A DNA stretch of 64,000 bases, from NCBI GenBank assembly GCA_002721815.1, contig PBLQ01000011.1, forward strand, positions 62,001-126,000, given 5' to 3'. Source of the stretch: Myxococcales bacterium. Its GTDB lineage: Bacteria; Myxococcota; UBA727; GCA-2721815. The notes under the pieces are model-generated. The model made no database searches. It was not told the DNA's origin and saw only the letters and a program-made list of their open reading frames with translations. The position numbers and the translations under genes were made by a program. The first letter of the stretch is position 1, and the number at the start of each line of letters is the position of its first letter. Below are positions 2,814-57,444 of this stretch, one piece after another.

Positions 2814-3917
2814 ATGACAGATCAAAAAGAATTGCTGGCAAAAACCATGCATGCGGCAAACCAAGCCGTTTTAAAACCCAAACTGACCAAACCAACGAAC
2901 GTTGCAATCATTGGTGCCACCGGAGTGGTCGGGAGAGAGACCTTGTCCATCCTGGAGGAGCGAAACTTCCCCGTGGGACAGCTTCGTCTGTTGGCATCCG
3001 AGCGCTCCGCAGGCGAAAAAATTGAATTTAACGGTGAAGACCACACCGTTGACATTCTAGATGAACAAGCGTTCCAAAATGTGGAAGTGGCGTTCTTTTG
3101 TGCGGGCGGCGGTATTTCTAAACAATTCGCACCCATTGCAGCCAAAGCGGGTGCCGTCTGTATCGACAAAAGTTCTTTTTTTAGAATGGATGAAGATGTC
3201 CCACTGGTGGTGCCAGAGGTAAACCCCCAAGACATCGCCGGATACACCCAAAAAGGTATCATCGCTTCTCCCAATTGTTCCACCATCCCACTCATGCAAG
3301 TGGTCAAACCGCTTCATGACGTTGTGGGCGTTAATCATGTGGTGGCAGCCACGTATCAGGCCGTTTCCGGGGCAGGTAAAAGCGGCATTGAAGAACTTGA
3401 AAAACAGGTCCGCGACCTTTTTAACATGCGTGAACTGGACACTTCAGTCTTTCAACAGCGCATTGCCTTTAATGCACTGCCCATGATTCCTGCCACCGAT
3501 GGGATGGAAGAAAACGGCAACACCAACGAAGAAAATAAAATGATTTCCGAGAGCCGGAAGATTCTTGGTCTGCCAGGGCTCAAGCTTTCCATAACGTGCG
3601 TCCGCATTCCTGTGTTCAACGGGCACAGCGAAGCCGTCCATTTGGGGCTCAATGAGTCCATCAGTGTTGATCGGGTTCGAGAACTTCTTTCTGCCGCTCC
3701 TGGCGTGGTGGTCATCGATAACCCAACAGAAGGTGGTTACCCTACCCCTGCCGATGCAGCAGGAGAGGACATGACCTTAGTGGGCCGTATTCGTTTAGAC
3801 ACCGGCTTCGATAATGGCATCGCATTGTGGTTCTCCAGTGACAATCTGCGTACGGGAGCAGCCTTGAATGCAGTGCGCATCGCTGAACTTCTTTGTTCGG
3901 AGCACCTTCACAAATGA
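2814..3917 (+). CDS. asd: Aspartate-semialdehyde dehydrogenase
   Basis: It makes aspartate semialdehyde from aspartyl phosphate with NADPH, feeding lysine/diaminopimelate, threonine and methionine synthesis. The dinucleotide-binding motif VAIIGATGVVG is near residues 30-40, the catalytic cysteine is in SPNCSTIP, and the substrate-binding segment includes RIPVFNGHS. The 367-residue reading has about 28 residues before the Rossmann strand, longer than many relatives. The ribosome binding site is weak and a later start (second Met, residue 12) is possible. It lies 12 bases after the lipoprotein gene, and its stop overlaps the next start (ATGA). Confidence 0.95.
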   Translation: MTDQKELLAKTMHAANQAVLKPKLTKPTNVAIIGATGVVGRETLSILEERNFPVGQLRLLASERSAGEKIEFNGEDHTVDILDEQAFQNVEVAFFCAGGGISKQFAPIAAKAGAVCIDKSSFFRMDEDVPLVVPEVNPQDIAGYTQKGIIASPNCSTIPLMQVVKPLHDVVGVNHVVAATYQAVSGAGKSGIEELEKQVRDLFNMRELDTSVFQQRIAFNALPMIPATDGMEENGNTNEENKMISESRKILGLPGLKLSITCVRIPVFNGHSEAVHLGLNESISVDRVRELLSAAPGVVVIDNPTEGGYPTPADAAGEDMTLVGRIRLDTGFDNGIALWFSSDNLRTGAALNAVRIAELLCSEHLHK

Positions 3918-5842
3918 AATTGATGACGTTTTTTATCCCAATGGCCTTGGTATGGGGTTTCTCCCAAACGGCCCAAGCTGAGTCCATCATCTCTCGTGAC
4001 CTCTCACAGTCATCCTTGAATCGGTCCAATTGCGAGGAGCCGGGCACCATCGTTGCCAACTGGTCCATCGCCACTTCCACCGCTTCTCTGTCCTACAACA
4101 TCCGTCTCGAAGCCAGGGACCACGCTAACGCAACCAACCCGTGTCCCATCGGCGCCGGCAGCTCAAACGTGGAGAACATTGACTCCGTGGACGTGACCAA
4201 TCTGTCATCTCAGGTCGATGTAACGTTCTCGATTTCCACCAATGATATTTTTGAAAGCGATGCCTGCGGTGACGTTGGTGCACGTGAAGCGCGGACCTTT
4301 TGTCTTTACGTCAGGGACCAAACCAATATTGATGTGGCCTCCGACGGGTTCAGCATTTCTTACGACACCGTTTTGCCCGAGGCACTCGAGGTAGGTGACA
4401 TTCAGCCTGGTGACGAAAAAATACAGTTCCAAGTGAGTGGCGGTGACCCCAACGGCAACAAGACACTTACCTATATCGTGGCCTACCGCTCCTGCGATAG
4501 CGAAGCGTCGGACGATACGGCCTCTACCCTCACCGATGCAGGTTTCACTTCAAGCGATGCGGGAATGATGCTCCTATCCGATGGCGGCCAAATTGCCATC
4601 GGTGGCGTTTTTTCGCCCGATGCGGGAGGTACTTTTGCGAACGCTGACGCGGGTGCCGTTAACTTTACGCCAGATGCAGGGAGCCACACCAGCGCAGGGT
4701 CTGATGCCGGTGCGACCGCCTCTGCAGGTTTCCCCATGACCGATGCGCGCGACGGCGGTACCGACCAGACAGCCAGCCTATGTGGTGCCGAGGGCGATTT
4801 CCTAACCATGTCCACCTTAAGCAGCACCATCACCATCTCCGACCTGAACAATGATGAACAGTACGAGTTCAAGGTCTACGCCGAAGATGACTTTGATAAT
4901 GTGGGCCCCTACTCCGACCTCTACACCAGTACCCCACTCAACGAAGTCTCGGTCATGGATATGTACGATGGTACGCCCAATCCGTGGGGATTCAATTGTC
5001 AACAAAGCCAACATTTGCCCCTTCCGTTGTTGGCCTTAGCGGCGTTTTTATCTCTTTTGAGGGTCAGAAAAAACAACCGTCTCCCCAAGGTACCTCTGTT
5101 GATTGTTTTAAGTATCTTTGTGGCCTTGCCCGTACAGGCTGATGTGGGGCAAACCAGTTTCTCTATGAGTGGGGGCCCCTACCTTCCAGCCATTGACAGT
5201 GAGACGGTAGACGGTGAAAGCATCTTTCCAATCTACGATTGTTTCTTCGACAACGAAACCCTCGGACTCATGCAACTGGACTTTGGTTACCGCGTCTTAG
5301 ATGGATTTGGAAACATTCAACTGGGTCTCGGTCTGGGCTACGCTCAAGCGCGGGGCACCGCTCAAACAGCCGATATTCTCACCACCGGCCAATGTGGAGA
5401 AAAGTCATCGGGCTCTGTGGCACTCCATTTGGTAGAGCTAAGGCCTTACGCCGCTTACTATTTGGACGCCATTTTACTGGAATGGGGCATCCCCATCGTC
5501 CCTTACGCCAAGCTAGGCGTTGCGTCCTTTTTGTACGGGTGGACCCACGACGGCGAACAAGACCGTTCGGGAGAGGCAGATGACAATTACGCCACTGGCG
5601 TCCGTCCAGCCATCGACTCTTCCGCTGGTTTTCTGTTGGCCCTTGATTGGCTTGAGCCCTCCGTGACTCGGCGTGCCCGTGCCAGTGGGACTTACGAGAA
5701 TGCGTATGCCCTTTTGGAAGTGGCCTATGTGTCCACCACCGAACCAGGCGTGCCTGGTCTCGTACTTTCTGCCACCGACCTGTATTTCGATACCCAACAG
5801 CCTTTAATGGTTCGGTTTGGGATTATGGTGGAGTATCCATGA
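3914..5842 (+). CDS. Fusion of a MYXO-CTERM-like surface protein and an outer-membrane beta-barrel protein
   Basis: The ATG at 3914 overlaps the asd stop (ATGA) and gives a normal signal peptide (MKLMTFFIPM, cut near AQA). The 642-residue product has two halves. The first carries a fibronectin-III-like region, split by a linker with six Asp-Ala-Gly and two Asp-Gly-Gly motifs (nt 4535-4760), and ends with Cys362, a hydrophobic helix (about 370-382) and a basic RVRKNNR tail, like a MYXO-CTERM sorting signal. The second begins with another signal-like stretch ending PVQA (about 391-407), followed by alternating glycine/aromatic strands typical of a small barrel. From memory the halves recall the neighbouring Myxococcus families MXAN_2561 and MXAN_2562. 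A TTG at 5057 could start the second half, but it has no ribosome site. Confidence 0.7.
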   Translation: MKLMTFFIPMALVWGFSQTAQAESIISRDLSQSSLNRSNCEEPGTIVANWSIATSTASLSYNIRLEARDHANATNPCPIGAGSSNVENIDSVDVTNLSSQVDVTFSISTNDIFESDACGDVGAREARTFCLYVRDQTNIDVASDGFSISYDTVLPEALEVGDIQPGDEKIQFQVSGGDPNGNKTLTYIVAYRSCDSEASDDTASTLTDAGFTSSDAGMMLLSDGGQIAIGGVFSPDAGGTFANADAGAVNFTPDAGSHTSAGSDAGATASAGFPMTDARDGGTDQTASLCGAEGDFLTMSTLSSTITISDLNNDEQYEFKVYAEDDFDNVGPYSDLYTSTPLNEVSVMDMYDGTPNPWGFNCQQSQHLPLPLLALAAFLSLLRVRKNNRLPKVPLLIVLSIFVALPVQADVGQTSFSMSGGPYLPAIDSETVDGESIFPIYDCFFDNETLGLMQLDFGYRVLDGFGNIQLGLGLGYAQARGTAQTADILTTGQCGEKSSGSVALHLVELRPYAAYYLDAILLEWGIPIVPYAKLGVASFLYGWTHDGEQDRSGEADDNYATGVRPAIDSSAGFLLALDWLEPSVTRRARASGTYENAYALLEVAYVSTTEPGVPGLVLSATDLYFDTQQPLMVRFGIMVEYP

Positions 5843-5924
5843 CCGCTGTTCTCTTCTTTTCCATCCGCCACACAGAAGAGTAGCACCAGACAACCAGCAC
5901 ACCATTTCGGAGGAACCGCCCAAA

Positions 5925-6875
5925 ATGCACACCCATGATACGGTACAGCCGACACCGGTGGTGCAACCCTCCAAGGGCTTGAGCCTTGCGTTGCTCTCGC
6001 TATTGATCGCGCTGGGCATTTACGCCGTGTTGGCCCAAACGATGGAACGCAACGATGTTCCCCAACAATCTTCTTATGTGGCGGCCAAAAGTAAAATACT
6101 CGAAATGGACTATACCCATGGACGAGATGCATTGGTGTTTTTGCCCGCTTGGACATTACGCCCTTTACAATCCATGGGCGACCTTGAACCCATTGGGAGT
6201 GACATGGTCACCCTACTGCCGCCGCTCCCTTACAAACGACTGTTTGTTGTGGAGGAGCCTGATGCGTCATCAGAAATGAAAAACCTGGAGACCATCTACG
6301 GACCACCCTCTCAAACGTGGTCCATTGATAATCTCAATCTTCACCTTTGGGACCTAGACCCACAAGGTAGCTTCGGGACCTTAGGGGCACACCTGGATGC
6401 TGCCCTCGTACAAATTAAAAGTCGTGCTGAAACGGTAGAGTGCCCATGGACCATCGACAAACATCAATGTGATGGTGAACCGAACTGGCAGCACGTCCAA
6501 CGAAAGTGGATGCGCACCACCCGCAACAGCACAGAAATGGTTTGGGCCCATCCTCCCGCTAAAAAAAGCGCTCTGCACATCCAGTTTCCACAACAACAAA
6601 AACGTGCCTTCCTGATCATTTATGGTGGCCACACCCGTTATGCGCTCAAACACCGTGCCGCGTCCGTCAAAATGGAAGTGAGGTTCAATAATAAAAAAAT
6701 CGCAGCTCTCACTTTTGGCAATGACTTTCCAATGGCCCTGCACAGCGTCGCCATCCCCGCTGAGTTGGCCCAGCAAGGCGACCTGACATTCAAAATTTCC
6801 AGCAAAAGTAACCGAAAGAACAATTTTGGATTTGACGCATTTTGGTCAGACCAAAATATGAGGGGCCTGCCATGA
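5925..6875 (+). CDS. Unknown protein with one N-terminal membrane anchor
   Basis: I choose the ATG at 5925 because CGGAGGA (5908-5913) lies upstream; an open frame back to 5817 lacks such a site. The 316 residues begin with a short polar segment, one membrane helix (about 18-35) and a long soluble domain, probably periplasmic. The C-terminal third has beta-strand-like alternation (ALHIQF, AFLIIYGG, VKMEVRFNNKKIAALTFG, LTFKISSK) that could be a carbohydrate-binding-like sandwich; this is weak inference. Its stop overlaps the glycosyltransferase start (ATGA), suggesting a shared job in glycan or surface assembly. No family is recognised. Confidence 0.65.
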   Translation: MHTHDTVQPTPVVQPSKGLSLALLSLLIALGIYAVLAQTMERNDVPQQSSYVAAKSKILEMDYTHGRDALVFLPAWTLRPLQSMGDLEPIGSDMVTLLPPLPYKRLFVVEEPDASSEMKNLETIYGPPSQTWSIDNLNLHLWDLDPQGSFGTLGAHLDAALVQIKSRAETVECPWTIDKHQCDGEPNWQHVQRKWMRTTRNSTEMVWAHPPAKKSALHIQFPQQQKRAFLIIYGGHTRYALKHRAASVKMEVRFNNKKIAALTFGNDFPMALHSVAIPAELAQQGDLTFKISSKSNRKNNFGFDAFWSDQNMRGLP

Positions 6876-8533
6876 CCGCCCCCGCTTCCACTTCGATCCT
6901 TCATCGCCCGTGGTTCTGCGCATTGTTACTTTTTTTGGGCACGGCCATCTTGGTCGGAATGACCAGTGGCGACATTGGCTTCACCCGCGATGAAGGCTAC
7001 TATTTCAAGGCGGGCCGGGACTACTTTGGTTGGTTTGCTGAACTTTGGCAGAACCTTCTCAACGGCAAATTCACACAATCATTCTCCAAGAGCGCTATCG
7101 ATCGTCATTGGTCCTATAACCACGAACATCCCGTTCTGGTGAAAACCATGTTTGCTTTGTCCTATGGAGTTTTAAAAGAATGGCTCGGAATTTTTAGCAC
7201 CGACAGCGAAGCCATGCGTTTTGTGGGTTGGATCTTTGGCGGTCTCACGGTGTCGATGACGTATCTGCTCGCACGAACCCTGGTGTCCAACGGGCTGGCC
7301 ATTTTGGCCGCACTTTTGTGGTTATTTATGCCTCGAACATTTTGGCACATGCATTTGGCCTGTTTTGACATTCCAATTATTTTTGGGCACGTCTGGCTCA
7401 TCTACGCCTATTTGCAAAGCCAACGGTCGCTCAAGCATGCCATTTGGGCGGGCGTGGTTTTTGGACTGGCCGCTGCAATCAAGCACAACGTCCTCTTCGT
7501 TCCATTCATCTTGGTGTTGCACTGGATGTTGGTCCAAGCCCGGTGGCCCAAATTTGAACAAGCCGGTCTTAAGTTGCCATCAATTCCGTTGGCGTTTTTC
7601 ACCATCGCCGTATTGGGCCCCATCGTCTTCGTTTTGCATTGGCCCTATTTGTGGCCAGACGTGATTAGCCGCATTGGCTGGTACTTCAACTTCCACCTGG
7701 ACCACGAGCATTACCCCATCCTCTATTTTGGAGAACTCCTGAGTGCACCACCTTTCCCGCGGCACTTCCCCTTTGTTATGTCAGCCGTGACCATTCCTTT
7801 GGTCACTTTGGGGCTGATTCTCCTATCGTTAGGAGCTGCAATCTATGCCCTCGTACGGCACTTTCCTCGTTTGCGACGAAACAATGACGTGCCGCTCCAA
7901 CATCCACACGCCGTTTTATTGTTGTTATTTCTGAATGCAGTCATGCCATTTTGGGTCATTGCCAATCCCGGCACGCCCATCTTCGGTGGCACCAAACATT
8001 GGATGAACGGCGTTCCATTTTTGTGCATCCTGGCCGTTTGGGTGCTGCAGGTCCTTTTCCATCAAATTCGAAATTCGAATCATTATAAAAAACTGCAAAC
8101 CGGGGTCATAGGTGCCTTGTTGGTTCCCGCTGCACTCTTAACTTTTCATTCCCATCCTTACGGTCTTTCTTCGTATAATGAGGTGATTGGCTTTGCCCGT
8201 GGCGCGGCCAACGCTGGATTCCAAAGAACTTTTTGGGGATATGAACCCCAAGAAAGCTGGGACATGATCAACCAGCGAACGCCCAAAAACAGCAAACTTC
8301 ATCTGGGGGATACCAATCAAGCATCGTACCGAACCTATAAGAAAGATAAAATCATCCGTAAGGATCTGCGCTACTCTGGTCGCGTGCAGAACTCTCATGC
8401 TGCTTCGGTACAACCACAGGGCGAGTTTAAAAAACAATGGGTGGATGTTTGGAACATGTGGAAGACCAGAAAACCTGCTGGCGTCGTCCATATTGATGGC
8501 GTGCCCTTATCAACCGTAAGCTTTAAACCATGA
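6872..8533 (+). CDS. GT39-like polytopic glycosyltransferase
   Basis: The 553-residue inner-membrane protein has about ten or more hydrophobic segments. The first external loop holds TRDEGYYF, matching the acidic catalytic-loop motif of the PMT/ArnT (GT39, GT-C fold) superfamily, and His-rich loops follow (YNHEHPVLVK, HLDHEHYP). Such enzymes move a sugar from a polyprenyl-phosphate donor to a protein or lipid; donor and acceptor here are unknown. The start at 6872 is set by the ATGA overlap with the upstream anchored protein, and its own stop overlaps the next start the same way. The soluble C-terminal 100 residues are unassigned. Confidence 0.8.
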   Translation: MTAPASTSILHRPWFCALLLFLGTAILVGMTSGDIGFTRDEGYYFKAGRDYFGWFAELWQNLLNGKFTQSFSKSAIDRHWSYNHEHPVLVKTMFALSYGVLKEWLGIFSTDSEAMRFVGWIFGGLTVSMTYLLARTLVSNGLAILAALLWLFMPRTFWHMHLACFDIPIIFGHVWLIYAYLQSQRSLKHAIWAGVVFGLAAAIKHNVLFVPFILVLHWMLVQARWPKFEQAGLKLPSIPLAFFTIAVLGPIVFVLHWPYLWPDVISRIGWYFNFHLDHEHYPILYFGELLSAPPFPRHFPFVMSAVTIPLVTLGLILLSLGAAIYALVRHFPRLRRNNDVPLQHPHAVLLLLFLNAVMPFWVIANPGTPIFGGTKHWMNGVPFLCILAVWVLQVLFHQIRNSNHYKKLQTGVIGALLVPAALLTFHSHPYGLSSYNEVIGFARGAANAGFQRTFWGYEPQESWDMINQRTPKNSKLHLGDTNQASYRTYKKDKIIRKDLRYSGRVQNSHAASVQPQGEFKKQWVDVWNMWKTRKPAGVVHIDGVPLSTVSFKP

Positions 8534-8946
8534 GCATCGATGAAAGAATAAAGAAGCTTAACCTTTTATCCAGCGGTGGGCATCCCTTGGAAAACCTTTT
8601 AAGCCAGGGTGATTACGCCTCGGTAGCGCAAACCTTACTCGAAGCCAACCACGTGGAATTAGCGGGCGATCTGTTTTTACACCTTTTTGATTTCGATAAA
8701 GCATATTCGGCTTATCTCGAAGCCAAGGCGTGGCAAAAACTAGCCAAGGTCACTCACCAATCCAAGAGTCAAGAACTCAAAAGTGCATTCTTACGATTTG
8801 TATCCCTCAACCATCACAGCGATGCAGCACTCAAATGGATTCCCTCAGGCGCCATGGATCTCAAAGCAGCATTGCTCGAGAACACAGGTCGTTTTGCTGA
8901 TGCTGCTGCTTGTTATGAAGAAATGTACGAACCGTTAAAAGCCTGA
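8530..8946 (+). pseudogene. N-terminal TPR part of a TPR/tandem-pseudokinase gene, ended by an in-frame UGA
   Basis: The ATG overlaps the glycosyltransferase stop (ATGA). The 138 residues are helical TPR-like pairs (LLEANHVELAGDLFLHLFDF, TGRFADAAACYEEMYEP). TGA at 8944-8946 ends the frame, but codons 8947-9057 continue in the same frame with TPR-like sequence (CYERSNAYHQAGQIYERAL) straight into the gene piece at 9058. Without that one codon the locus is a single 755-residue protein (8530-10797). A nonsense mutation (for example CGA to TGA), a sequencing error or UGA recoding would explain it. I call it broken, with moderate certainty. Confidence 0.75.
8944..8946 (+). other. In-frame UGA codon inside the TPR/pseudokinase reading frame
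   Basis: UGA is codon 139 of a frame otherwise open from 8530 to 10797, in the context Lys-Ala-UGA-Pro-Cys-Tyr. Many genes here end in UGA (all the ATGA overlaps), so the code is not generally reassigned. I see no strong hairpin just downstream with the G/U loop expected of a bacterial SECIS; the best is GCG-6-CGC with loop CUCCAA. Confidence 0.85.
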
Positions 8947-9057
8947 CCCTGTTACGAGCGCTCCAACGCGTACCATCAAGCAGGACAAATTTACGAGCGC
9001 GCACTTAAAGACAACCCTGGGGAGACTGATCTCACTTTCAGACTGACTCGAATTTTA

Positions 9058-10797
9058 ATGGAACTGGGCCAGTTTGCGCCAGCCATCGACAAGCTACAGC
9101 CGTTACTCAATCAGGCCGATGATGAATCCCAAGACAAAGCTTTTCCTCTCATCTGTACGTGCTTTTTAGCACAGGGATACCAAGCGGCGGCTGAGACAAC
9201 CTTGTTGCGTTGGCGCGAACAATCCACTCAGCCAGAAATCCCCGATTCCATTGACGCATTCATTCGTAGCCCTATAGCAAAATATTACCTCGACCAAGAA
9301 AACCGAATCCGGGATGCTGGCTCCGGCTTACTTTTGGCAGGACGCTATCTCCTGAGCGCCCCCATTGAGTCCAACCCGTTTGGCGAGATTTGGAGTGGTT
9401 TTGACCGACTCACTGCCAAACATGTTCACATTCAAATCTTTGACGAAACCGTCCTTCAATCCGACAGCTTTGAAAAACTCATTCAAGAGGTCCAAGCCGT
9501 CCAAATGCAAAGTCCCATTGGGGCCATGCAAATTCACGATTTGAAGGCTAGTAATGGTTTCCTCGTCCTTCTCCCACCCAAGGGGCTCCCTCTGAAAAAA
9601 ATCGTTCTTCAATTCACCATGCGGGAATTGCGGCGTTACTTTTATCGGCTGCTCGATGTGATTGAACGGTTTCACGAGGGGGGTTGGCATCACACACAAC
9701 TCTATCCCGGAAATATTTTTTTGGGTTCACGACAGGTCGAAGTGCTGGGTTGGGGGTATCGACACCTAAAAAGCCAATTGCGTACCATGACCACGGGCCC
9801 GGACAGTCCATGGCGGTTCTGCGCGCCAGAGGTACTCAAGGCACGACCAGCAGATGCCCGAGCTGATATTTATACTTTGGCCGCACTGCTGCAATGGATC
9901 TTTGAAATGCACCAACTGACGGAGACTCAAATGGCCGCAGATTGGAATGCTTTCTTCGAATCCGAGCTCGCCGCCCATCCCGAAGATCGCAGTCCCAATA
10001 TTGAAGCGTTTCGTCAATCGATGCCACTTTGGCCTTTGTACTCGGCCCCCGAAGTGCAAGATAAAAAAAGCCCTTCCACGCAAAGCATCAAAAATATTCC
10101 AGCCGGTGTGGTGAGAAGCCTAGAATCCAACGCTGAATACAAACTATTCTCCGTCCCTCACGCTGAGCTGAGCAGAGAGGAGTGGGTCGTTGAAACCACG
10201 CGTTCCGATATTCTGGAACGGCTTCTGCCATGGTCAACCATTCGCAGAGGGGCCCAAGAAGTATTCCGTTGGCAGACAGATGCGAATCAAGTTTACATTT
10301 CACCCAGCACTGACGCGCATTTAGACCTCTCATCTTTACGCCATTTTCCCTACAGCCTCACCCGAGACTTGGCAGCGGTGGCAGATGCACTGCAAACCCT
10401 ACACAGTGCAGGCTTGGGCATGGGATTTTTCGGCGTGGAGCGCGGCTTAGGAAACTATGGTCCCCAATTGCAACTGGTACCTGGGTCCCTACCCAGCAAT
10501 ATCACCCCCACCTTGCGCGCTGAGGACTTGGAGGCTTTTGTACAACTCGTTCAGTTTTGTTTTGACCTGAATACAGAAAGTCCAAACAACATCTGGGAGG
10601 AACTCTTACATCACCTGCGTCAGGATAAAGCACTGAGTCAGCAACAAACGGACACCTATCTACAACTGGCCCCTCATCAGCTTACCGAATGGCGTGACGC
10701 CCTCGATCAACTCTCTCATGGGCTGAAGCAAAAAAGGCCTCAACACGTGCTGGCACAGATCGCAGCCGATTTAAAAGCGGGGAATGCGTCGCCATGA
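9058..10797 (+). CDS. Tandem pseudokinase part of the same locus
   Basis: This is the downstream part of the 8530-10797 frame. The ATG at 9058 has no ribosome site, so independent translation is doubtful. The 579 residues start with a TPR segment, then a Ser/Thr-kinase-like fold (about 95-285). The usual VAIK Lys is Gln126, the HRD Asp is Gln214 (HTQLYPGN, with Asn219 kept), and DFG is GWG (231-233). APE (CAPEVL) and the following helix (ADIYTLAALLQW) remain. Catalysis is therefore unlikely. Residues 410-500 resemble a second, more decayed kinase C-lobe (VADALQTLHSAGLGMGF). It is probably a cytoplasmic scaffold; partner unknown. Its end overlaps thiL (ATGA). Confidence 0.75.
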   Translation: MELGQFAPAIDKLQPLLNQADDESQDKAFPLICTCFLAQGYQAAAETTLLRWREQSTQPEIPDSIDAFIRSPIAKYYLDQENRIRDAGSGLLLAGRYLLSAPIESNPFGEIWSGFDRLTAKHVHIQIFDETVLQSDSFEKLIQEVQAVQMQSPIGAMQIHDLKASNGFLVLLPPKGLPLKKIVLQFTMRELRRYFYRLLDVIERFHEGGWHHTQLYPGNIFLGSRQVEVLGWGYRHLKSQLRTMTTGPDSPWRFCAPEVLKARPADARADIYTLAALLQWIFEMHQLTETQMAADWNAFFESELAAHPEDRSPNIEAFRQSMPLWPLYSAPEVQDKKSPSTQSIKNIPAGVVRSLESNAEYKLFSVPHAELSREEWVVETTRSDILERLLPWSTIRRGAQEVFRWQTDANQVYISPSTDAHLDLSSLRHFPYSLTRDLAAVADALQTLHSAGLGMGFFGVERGLGNYGPQLQLVPGSLPSNITPTLRAEDLEAFVQLVQFCFDLNTESPNNIWEELLHHLRQDKALSQQQTDTYLQLAPHQLTEWRDALDQLSHGLKQKRPQHVLAQIAADLKAGNASP

Positions 10798-11819
10798 AAG
10801 AACAAGACGTTCTCGAACTCATTCACACCTCATTCACAGGCCTACTCCACGAAGGCGCCAAAGGCTTTTCAAATGACGGCGCTTTAGTACTGCCCAACTC
10901 GGGACAAAGATTGGCTGTTTCCACAGACGCCTTTGCTTCCGATGTGGATTTTCGGCCATTTTGGGGCACCGCCGCTCAAGCCGGCGGTCGGGCCATCAAA
11001 CAAAACCTGTCCGATTTAGCTGCCATGGGCGCGCAACCCTTAGGGTTTACCTGGTCTTTGAGTATTTCCCATGATTGGCTCAACAACTCTGAGGGCTTCC
11101 AGTCATTTGTGCACGGTGCCGCTCAAGTCTGTCGGGAACACCAACTGCTTTTGCTGGGCGGCGATTTGGGATGGCAAAAAGAAGGTTTTTCATGCCACAT
11201 TACAATTATAGGCGAGACCCATGGCGCTGGCCTGGGGCACCAATCGGCTCAACCAGAGGAATCACTTTGGCTTTCTGGGCCGTTGGGGGAAAGCCATTTG
11301 GGACTGTCTTTAATTCAGCAAGCACACCATGCACAACCGTTTTTGAGTGACCCTCAATTCCAAACTTGGGTTCAAAACCGCTCCAAGCAAGAACGCAAAT
11401 GGGTGGAACGTCATCTCAATGGCCACCACGAGCTGGGTTTGGGGCATCATTTAAATGGTTTGGCCAGCGCTTGCATTGATATCAGCGATGGCCTTTCCTC
11501 CGACCTCCACAAAATATGTCGGGCGTCAGGCGTCGGCGCCTCCCTTGAATTAGCGCCCCTTGTCCAACATCTGCCTCAAACTACGCCCAAACAGTCCCAA
11601 CAGGTTGAGCACGCGGTTTTACACGGAGGTGAAGACTTTGTGCTGCTCTTCTCAGTCCCAAAGGCCAAAGAAAACGAACTCAATTCGCTCATAGAAGCCG
11701 GGTTTTGCCTCCAAAAGATTGGTCAGACCAACACTGAAAAGAGCCAAATTACGCTCCACAGCGCAGGGTGTACCAAAATGTTACACCCTTTGGGCTGGGA
11801 CGCGATAAATCTGTACTAA
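10794..11819 (+). CDS. thiL: Thiamine-monophosphate kinase
   Basis: ThiL phosphorylates thiamine monophosphate to thiamine diphosphate with ATP, the last step of the cofactor's synthesis. The 341 residues carry the expected acidic motifs in order: STDAFASDVDF, NLSDLAAMGAQPLG, LLGGDL, CIDISDGLSSDL and LHGGEDFVLLF. The related SelD and PurM folds were considered; the SDGLSSDL and GGEDF spacing fits ThiL. The start is in the ATGA overlap with the pseudokinase gene. It is the last gene of the long plus-strand run and faces a GST gene 10 bases away. Confidence 0.92.
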   Translation: MKEQDVLELIHTSFTGLLHEGAKGFSNDGALVLPNSGQRLAVSTDAFASDVDFRPFWGTAAQAGGRAIKQNLSDLAAMGAQPLGFTWSLSISHDWLNNSEGFQSFVHGAAQVCREHQLLLLGGDLGWQKEGFSCHITIIGETHGAGLGHQSAQPEESLWLSGPLGESHLGLSLIQQAHHAQPFLSDPQFQTWVQNRSKQERKWVERHLNGHHELGLGHHLNGLASACIDISDGLSSDLHKICRASGVGASLELAPLVQHLPQTTPKQSQQVEHAVLHGGEDFVLLFSVPKAKENELNSLIEAGFCLQKIGQTNTEKSQITLHSAGCTKMLHPLGWDAINLY

Positions 11820-55809: not shown

Positions 55810-55836
55810 AGTTCTTCGCCTCGCTAAAGTGAAAAT

Positions 55837-57444
55837 TTAATCACTGTAACCTTCTTCAATACCGAAGTCGTATGGACCGGTGGTTACGTGTGGGGTTTCG
55901 TGGAAGTTGTGCTCAATAGGTGGCGTGGTGCAAACAGTCCATTCCAGGGTACTCGCGTTCCATGGATTCTGTGGGGCTTTTTCACCGTTGCGCAAAGAAT
56001 CGATCAAACTCCATAATGCAACGAACAAACCGAGAGCAAGAATATAAGAACCAATGGTTGAAATCTGATGATAGAATTCAAACTGCTCGAGGTAGTTGTA
56101 ATAGCGTCGCGGCATCCCCTGGGAGCCCATAAAGAACTGCGTGAAGAATGTCACATTAAAGCCGATGAACACCAGAATAGCACCGGTTGCTCCTAAAGAT
56201 TCTTTGTACATCTTGCCGGTCATCTTTGGCCACCAGTAATAAATGCCACCGATAAAAGCCATGATTGTAGAACCCATCATTACGTAATGAAAGTGAGCGA
56301 CAACAAAATAGGTATCGTGCAAGTGAATGTCCACAGACAAAACGCCCAAGAACAATCCTGTAAGTCCACCGATGGTGAACAAGAAAATGAACATCAAAGC
56401 GTACAACATTGGCGTCGCGAGGTTAATGGCGCCTTTGTACAAGGTTGCGACCCAGTTAAAGATCTTCACACCTGAAGGAATCGCCACGAGCATGGTGAGA
56501 AAGGAGAAGATTGCACCGGCCAAGGCACTCTGCCCTGATACGAAAAGATGGTGCCCCCAAACCAAGAAGCTGATGAGTGCGATGGACAATGATGAGAACG
56601 CTACAAAGGAATACCCAAAAACGCGTTTTTGGGAAAATGCAGCAATCAAATCAGACATGATGGCCATGCCGGGCAAAATCATGATGTACACAGCAGGGTG
56701 AGAATAGAACCAAAAGAAGTGCTGAAAGAGCACCGGGTCACCGCCCAAAGTTGGATCAAAGATGCCAACCCCGAGAGTGCGCTCCACGATGATCAACAGA
56801 AGGGTGATGGCCAAAACGGGCGTTGCCAAAATTTGGATCAGCGCTGTGGCATAGATTCCCCAGATGAAGAGCGGCATGTTAAACCAGGTCATCCCAGGGG
56901 CTCGCATTTTATGCACCGTGGTCATAAAGTTCATACCGGTCAGAATTGATGAGAAACCCAGAATGAAGGCAGCGAGCGTCATACTGACGACGGCCTGCGA
57001 ACTTTGTGAGGAGTAAGGCGTATAAAATGTCCAACCGGTATCGACCGCTCCTGAGACCATCGAATAGACGGCGAACAGAGACCCGGTAACATAAATGTAG
57101 TAAGACAGGAGATTCAGCTTAGGGAAAGCCACGTCTTTTGCCCCGAGCTGAAGTGGCAACACAAAATTCCCTAATGCCGCAGGGATGGAAGGGATGATCA
57201 CCAGAAACACCATGATAACACCGTGCATGGTGAATGCTTGGTTGTATTGCTGAGCGCTCATGATGGTTTCGGTGTGCGTGAAAAGCTCAGTACGCACCAA
57301 AATGGCGAAAATGCCACCGATCAGGAAGAAAAAGAGCACCGATGCCAAGTACATTAGTCCCAGGCGTTTGTGGTCAATGGTCAACAGCCAGGATTTAATC
57401 CCAGTGCTGGCGCGAAGATAATCTACGTCGTGATTGTCAGACAT
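55837..57444 (-). CDS. coxA: Cytochrome c oxidase subunit I
   Basis: The catalytic subunit reduces oxygen to water at the haem a3-CuB site and pumps protons. The 535 residues hold the haem a ligand His in [11 protein letters not shown], the CuB segment [15 protein letters not shown] with the His-Tyr cross-link pattern, HHLFVSG, and the haem ligands in [13 protein letters not shown]. Twelve helices are expected and visible. The long hydrophilic end is normal for the A-type. Genes for haem a synthesis and insertion (ctaA, ctaB) are not in the window. Confidence 0.97.

Follow-up and report, generated by a model that had tools for sequence, protein, structure and literature searches.

A lone in-frame UGA in a TPR-pseudokinase-like gene of a Myxococcales bacterium is better explained as a nonsense mutation than as a selenocysteine codon

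Background

Among the bacterial selenoproteins named in the available portion of PMC13188914 are a peroxiredoxin with a PxxxTxxU motif and a UGC-containing TlpA family. The same portion gives a model of the bacterial selenocysteine insertion sequence (bSECIS), a hairpin with a loop of 3-9 nt, a stem of 4-16 bp, a G in the first two loop bases, a spacing of 16-37 nt and a minimum free energy of at most -7.5, and states that some putative bacterial elements fall outside it. Variants of tRNA-Trp that read UGA carry, according to a passage of PMC13092985, a 4-bp anticodon stem, A9C or G24A, and with the native tRNA-Trp of its host an E. coli reporter described there gave background readthrough of UGA. 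Single-nonsense pseudogenes form a general class of bacterial genes in which such an internal UGA can also be placed. Here we analyse a 755-codon frame interrupted by a single UGA (positions 8530-10797, forward strand) in a stretch of 64,000 nucleotides, hereafter the window, from a Myxococcales bacterium (assembly GCA_002721815.1, contig PBLQ01000011.1, positions 62,001 to 126,000).

The locus resembles the selenoproteins of PMC13188914, as far as that portion describes them, in its in-frame UGA and in the selenocysteine machinery of its genome, and differs from them in lacking Cys homologues at the column, a hairpin of the SECIS model and a redox fold. A tRNA-Trp variant of the kind described in that part of PMC13092985 would likewise read an in-frame UGA; the tRNA-Trp of this genome, inspected by eye, shows none of those features (5-bp anticodon stem, A9, G24) and looks canonical. 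With the single-nonsense pseudogenes the locus shares one in-frame stop, an otherwise open frame, intact relatives and fast change in its lineage; the difference is that the stop has to be dated, and an error excluded, without a close relative or reads. Our preferred explanation, to which we give a fair but not decisive degree of confidence, is a recent nonsense mutation in a TPR-pseudokinase-like gene (TPR, tetratricopeptide repeat) on which constraint was already weak in this lineage.

Results and discussion

One UGA in an otherwise continuous frame

The frame opens with an ATG at 8530, in an ATGA overlap with the stop of the upstream gene, and is closed by a TGA at 10795-10797 that overlaps the ATG of the next gene at 10794. 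As the initial annotation had recognized, it contains a sole internal stop, TGA 8944-8946 (codon 139; G000:C10:70944-70946 in contig coordinates), followed by a C and by 616 open codons. Its parts are as follows.

8530..8943, + strand: first 138 codons, the start of a helical-repeat (TPR-like) protein, ending inside predicted helix 135-144; weak TPR_2 match at residues 111-131 (E 0.008, under the Pfam cut-off)
8944..8946, + strand: in-frame TGA, codon 139, opposite Ala in 5/5 relatives
8947..10797, + strand: 616 codons continuing the same protein according to profile matches and alignments, with the remaining TPR array, a degenerate protein-kinase-like domain, a C-terminal part and the terminal TGA
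9058..9060, + strand: ATG, the first possible in-frame start after the TGA, without a Shine-Dalgarno-like sequence nearby

On either side of the TGA the codon scores remain in phase (0.148 before, 0.107 after, with all five other frames downstream of it scoring below 0), so the continuity of the frame goes beyond chance. The two scores correspond to the 57th and 31st percentiles among the 364 long frames that score above zero, percentiles that are slightly circular in that the codon model was trained on those same sampled frames. Downstream of the stop, residues 146-200 match TPR_19 (30.8 bits, cut-off 25) and residues 284-465 match Pkinase (PF00069; 37.3 bits, cut-off 31.7). The same-frame continuation past codon 139 reported initially is thus borne out by the in-phase scores and the TPR_19 match. 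In a predicted structure, residue 139 lies inside helix 135-144 of the helical array; that model, with Cys substituted for the UGA residue, was used only for helix placement (mean predicted local distance difference test score, pLDDT, 63.8, and 86 in the block 131-140; predicted template modelling score 0.33). A genome search for a second copy of the gene returned only the gene itself, and an Rfam search of 8400-9400 gave two matches far under their gathering scores (E 0.77 and 0.86).

To place the stop within the genome, we scanned the window together with 40 more stretches from this genome, 856,780 bases in all, of which 74,528 are N and 782,252 are not; 2,653 stops in them are flanked on either side by 40 or more open codons. 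Of these, only the codon-139 TGA passed a strict single-stop filter, which required 100 or more open codons and a 40-codon score exceeding 0.05 both before and after the stop, and no start within the 15 codons that follow; its thresholds were chosen after a first scan had shown the site. Looser settings passed 6, 8, 7 and 26 stops: six when no start was allowed in the next 10 codons, the other five being TAA; eight with 60 open codons; and seven with a score threshold of 0 at 100 open codons, among them the peroxiredoxin selenoprotein described below. The strict filter therefore overlooks that protein, which is probably a true case.

Relatives carry alanine opposite the UGA

Proteins spanning both halves were found in five relatives (G002, G003, G006, G008 and G010) among 58 genomes searched, 52 of which gave some match; many other matches among those listed cover the kinase domain only. 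The five belong to the window's order and to three genera, three of them sharing one genus. A scan of species genomes found 205 stretches that matched the pattern, six of which encode a relative: the same five contigs and L055, which was dropped as a sixth relative on account of matching the kinase part only. No close relative emerged from either search, the best reaching about 30% identity over the protein.

In all five relatives the gene is a single unbroken frame with no stop in it, and homologues split into separate genes ending at this point, which the initial annotation had named as speaking against its view, were not seen among them. It had also suggested looking for Cys, Trp or Arg at the position; the residue opposite the UGA is Ala in 5/5 relatives, in two alignments built from loci of the same five genomes taken from separate searches and, for three of them, in a third alignment. 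About 13 residues are missing from the window protein immediately before the UGA, and the placement of this gap decides the column; all three alignments place it before the repeat, with the UGA opposite Ala. Cys141, two residues past the UGA, is invariant in 6/6 proteins and part of a repeat pattern (ECLEE, RCYEE and similar). Codon 139 is therefore a structural position of a helical repeat and not a redox site, and since the neighbouring Cys is an invariant residue of that repeat, UGA-Pro-Cys, initially taken for a redox-like context, is not a redox motif.

The VAIK Lys, the HRD Asp and the DFG Asp are catalytic motifs of protein kinases and served as our yardstick for the second half. The window protein carries Gln at the VAIK Lys, HTQLYPGN instead of HRDLKPxN and GWG at D-x-G, and does not qualify as an active kinase; all five relatives keep a VAIK-type Lys and the D-x-G Asp but have G or A where an active kinase has the HRD Asp. 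Judged by these motifs, the family (the window gene and loci L002-L006 and L050-L054) looks pseudokinase-like, and the window copy has lost further motif residues.

Fast change in this lineage

Divergence was counted at positions where G006, G002 and G008 agree. The protein of 8530-10797 differs at 144 of 270 such positions and the glycosyltransferase encoded directly upstream at 49 of 235 (Fisher p 5e-14), with the excess present in both halves (TPR 39/77, kinase 105/193). When G002 was treated as the odd one out, no excess appeared (31/157 vs 35/221, p 0.34). As the protein changes fast in this lineage, constraint on the gene was probably lax before, or at the time of, the break.

A recent nonsense mutation or an error in the consensus

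The initial annotation had offered a fresh nonsense mutation or a consensus error as explanations, and our results support this pair. If the stop is real, ribosomes would end at UGA 139 and release a 138-residue fragment stopping mid-helix of the TPR-like array, and the kinase-like part would not be produced in useful amount. Intact orthologues in 5/5 relatives, in the same genomic place in the 3/5 examined, support a pseudogene. The loss from the window protein of the VAIK-type Lys and the D-x-G Asp kept by 5/5 relatives also counts in favour of this reading. With no second stop in the frame, the mutation would be recent; more strictly, the lack of further stops means either a recent break or no break at all. 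A real mutation seems to us a reasonably good bet, and an error a weaker though serious contender.

Several observations weigh against a nonsense mutation in a weakly constrained gene. The gene at 5817-6875 is fast too, differing at 25 of 65 positions (p 0.005 vs the glycosyltransferase, p 0.04 vs the 8530-10797 gene), and general divergence may account for some of the excess; the LG+G4 branches to the window are 2.33 for 8530-10797, 0.70 for the glycosyltransferase and 1.78 for 5817-6875, such long branches being near saturation. Fast change may also reflect altered function rather than decay. The 616 downstream codons are still coding-like and free of other stops, a state that functional recoding explains as well, and with the best identity at about 30% there is no near intact copy for comparison. 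Finally, a consensus error fits the frame equally well.

Under that last explanation, the organism's gene would be intact and the UGA present only in the assembly, which we regard as possible, if unlikely. A lone odd codon in an open frame has the typical look of an error, the assembly is a draft of 74 contigs with no second gene copy to serve as a check, and the five relatives are labelled as metagenome-assembled genomes. Against it, the sampled sequence is otherwise clean, with one strict-filter interruption beside 364 long frames (in-frame stops were scanned, frameshifts were not), and a real mutation is somewhat the better match for a site within a gene that evolves fast in this lineage.

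Readthrough by other tRNAs

Near-cognate readthrough of a leaky UGA could in principle give enough full-length protein. A UGA followed by C, as here, is a leaky stop context, and the downstream frame is open. Background readthrough with a host tRNA-Trp, as in the E. coli reporter of the available part of PMC13092985, also speaks for it. The tRNA-Trp of this genome, in contrast, looks canonical; UGA is a normal terminator, ending 81 of 364 long frames as well as 8530-10797 itself and the gene directly upstream; and 0/5 relatives have a stop at codon 139. The UCA anticodon was found only in tRNA-Sec among the ARAGORN matches (31 of 32 listed were typed, an 84-nt match on C61 remaining untyped), and with 150 of 191 first candidates scored in a draft assembly the tRNA list may be incomplete. 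As far as that list reaches, a UGA-reading tRNA or an unusual tRNA-Trp was rejected. Readthrough was raised in the initial annotation; as a designed event it is unsupported by the anticodons and the canonical-looking tRNA-Trp, and we consider sufficient near-cognate readthrough very improbable.

Selenocysteine machinery and probable selenoproteins

Decoding of UGA 139 by SelB and tRNA-Sec had been judged worth checking, and in one respect rightly so: the machinery is complete, with selC at 71.7 bits (cut-off 47), selB at 270 (242), selA at 426 (268) and selD at 419 (125). On C51 the selC tRNA, with anticodon TCA, is adjacent to selA, and selB comes next on the opposite strand (G000:C51:44825-48068); selD is on C14. 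A PF00578 search returned 21 matches, three of them with one internal TGA: a peroxiredoxin (PLANTSGU) and two TlpA-type proteins (FWUGSC and AWUQGC), which score 77, 57.9 and 30.3 bits, respectively, with the UGA read as a residue (cut-off 26). The candidate loci are given below.

L136: G000:C45:83853-84200
L142: G000:C58:7310-7621; TSP3 repeat match below the Pfam cut-off
L143: G000:C21:54500-57500, match at 55830-56012; TSP3 repeat match over the Pfam cut-off

The genome thus probably encodes three selenoproteins, a PxxxTxxU peroxiredoxin and two TlpA-like proteins, and the bacterium very probably decodes selenocysteine. Genome searches gave six matches to the formate dehydrogenase TIGR01553, all under the cut-off and none with an internal stop, and no match to the SelW-like PF10262.

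It is at codon 139 itself that the proposal fails. Hairpin enumeration 3' of TGA 8944 yielded no candidate of the bSECIS model, in agreement with the initial remark that no SECIS-like hairpin was seen, whereas each of the three probable selenoproteins, used as positive controls, has a model-fitting hairpin (loops at +17, +17 and +21; best local folds of -13.3, -11.8 and -13.8 kcal/mol, energies that include other pairs of the stretch). In the UGSC protein the model-fitting hairpin is not the lowest-energy fold. For the 42 bases 3' of codon 139 the fold energy is -11.2 kcal/mol, a stability equalled by 15% of 5,000 random codons, and the three candidates reach 5-7%; a 67-base RNA fold at the UGA has a z-score of 0.02. 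The hairpin test is weak alone: 680 of 2,000 random in-frame codons pass it, and 757 of 2,000 are without any hairpin. Because random codons pass so often, the relatives' column is the stronger argument: Ala in 5/5 and Cys in none, no UGA-containing homologue among the five, and a helical-repeat rather than a redox position. Machinery searches, homologue column and hairpin enumeration with its three controls together led us to reject the selenoprotein reading; the complete machinery, the three probable selenoproteins and the putative elements outside the model (in the portion of PMC13188914 considered) leave it a very small chance. Slighter still is the chance of a newly gained, non-redox selenocysteine in a signalling-type protein, at a structural position of the helical repeat where no relative has Cys, inserted by means of a SECIS that the known model does not cover.

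Two separate proteins

The last alternative, a true split with the second protein made by re-initiation at 9058 or later, we hold to be about as improbable as selenocysteine at this codon. The in-frame ATG at 9058 (codon 177, 38 codons past the TGA) is the earliest ATG, GTG or TTG after the stop and speaks for it. Against it, 111 bases of continuing coding sequence precede that ATG and, read by eye, no Shine-Dalgarno-like stretch stands close 5' of it, as the initial annotation had stated of the downstream part. We rejected this reading on the unsplit gene in 5/5 relatives, the break within a predicted helix and the TPR_19 match at 146-200 that a start at codon 177 would cut.

Gene order

Judging from the ATGA overlaps at both of its ends, the gene probably sits in an operon of 5817-6875, 6842-8533, 8530-10797 and 10794-11819. 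Its neighbours are listed below.

5817..6875, + strand: upstream gene, family unassigned; no Pfam match; 26-28% identity to the counterparts in three relatives, order kept
6842..8533, + strand: upstream PMT_2-type glycosyltransferase; PF13231, 37.3 bits; 48-53% identity to three relatives, order kept
10794..11819, + strand: downstream thiL (thiamine-phosphate kinase); TIGR01379, 213 bits (cut-off 184)

Flanks were read in three of the five relatives (G006, G002 and G008), all with a 5817-6875-type gene and the glycosyltransferase upstream in identical order. The downstream side differs: G002 has a beta-propeller protein and then a thiL-like frame (by eye), and thiL was not seen in the G008 stretch examined downstream of the relative's gene. 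The 8530-10797 gene is very probably the orthologue of the relatives' gene and was formerly one gene.

Elsewhere in the window, the frame at 3893-5842 (649 codons) seems, by eye, to have a C-terminal sorting-tail-like end (about 5010-5080) fused to a signal-peptide-like start, with no stop between.

Conclusions

The premature stop looks like an ordinary kind of event, and the gene it interrupts is probably dispensable. The locus serves mainly as a clear negative case: the gene is split by a UGA and its genome very probably decodes selenocysteine, so that continuity of the frame and the presence of the machinery could easily, and wrongly, be taken as grounds for a new selenoprotein. The argument against is carried by the relatives' column, aided by the SECIS model. 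For selenoproteome surveys of the group, the three probable selenoproteins, in a genome without an over-cut-off TIGR01553 match, may be of greater interest than the stop.

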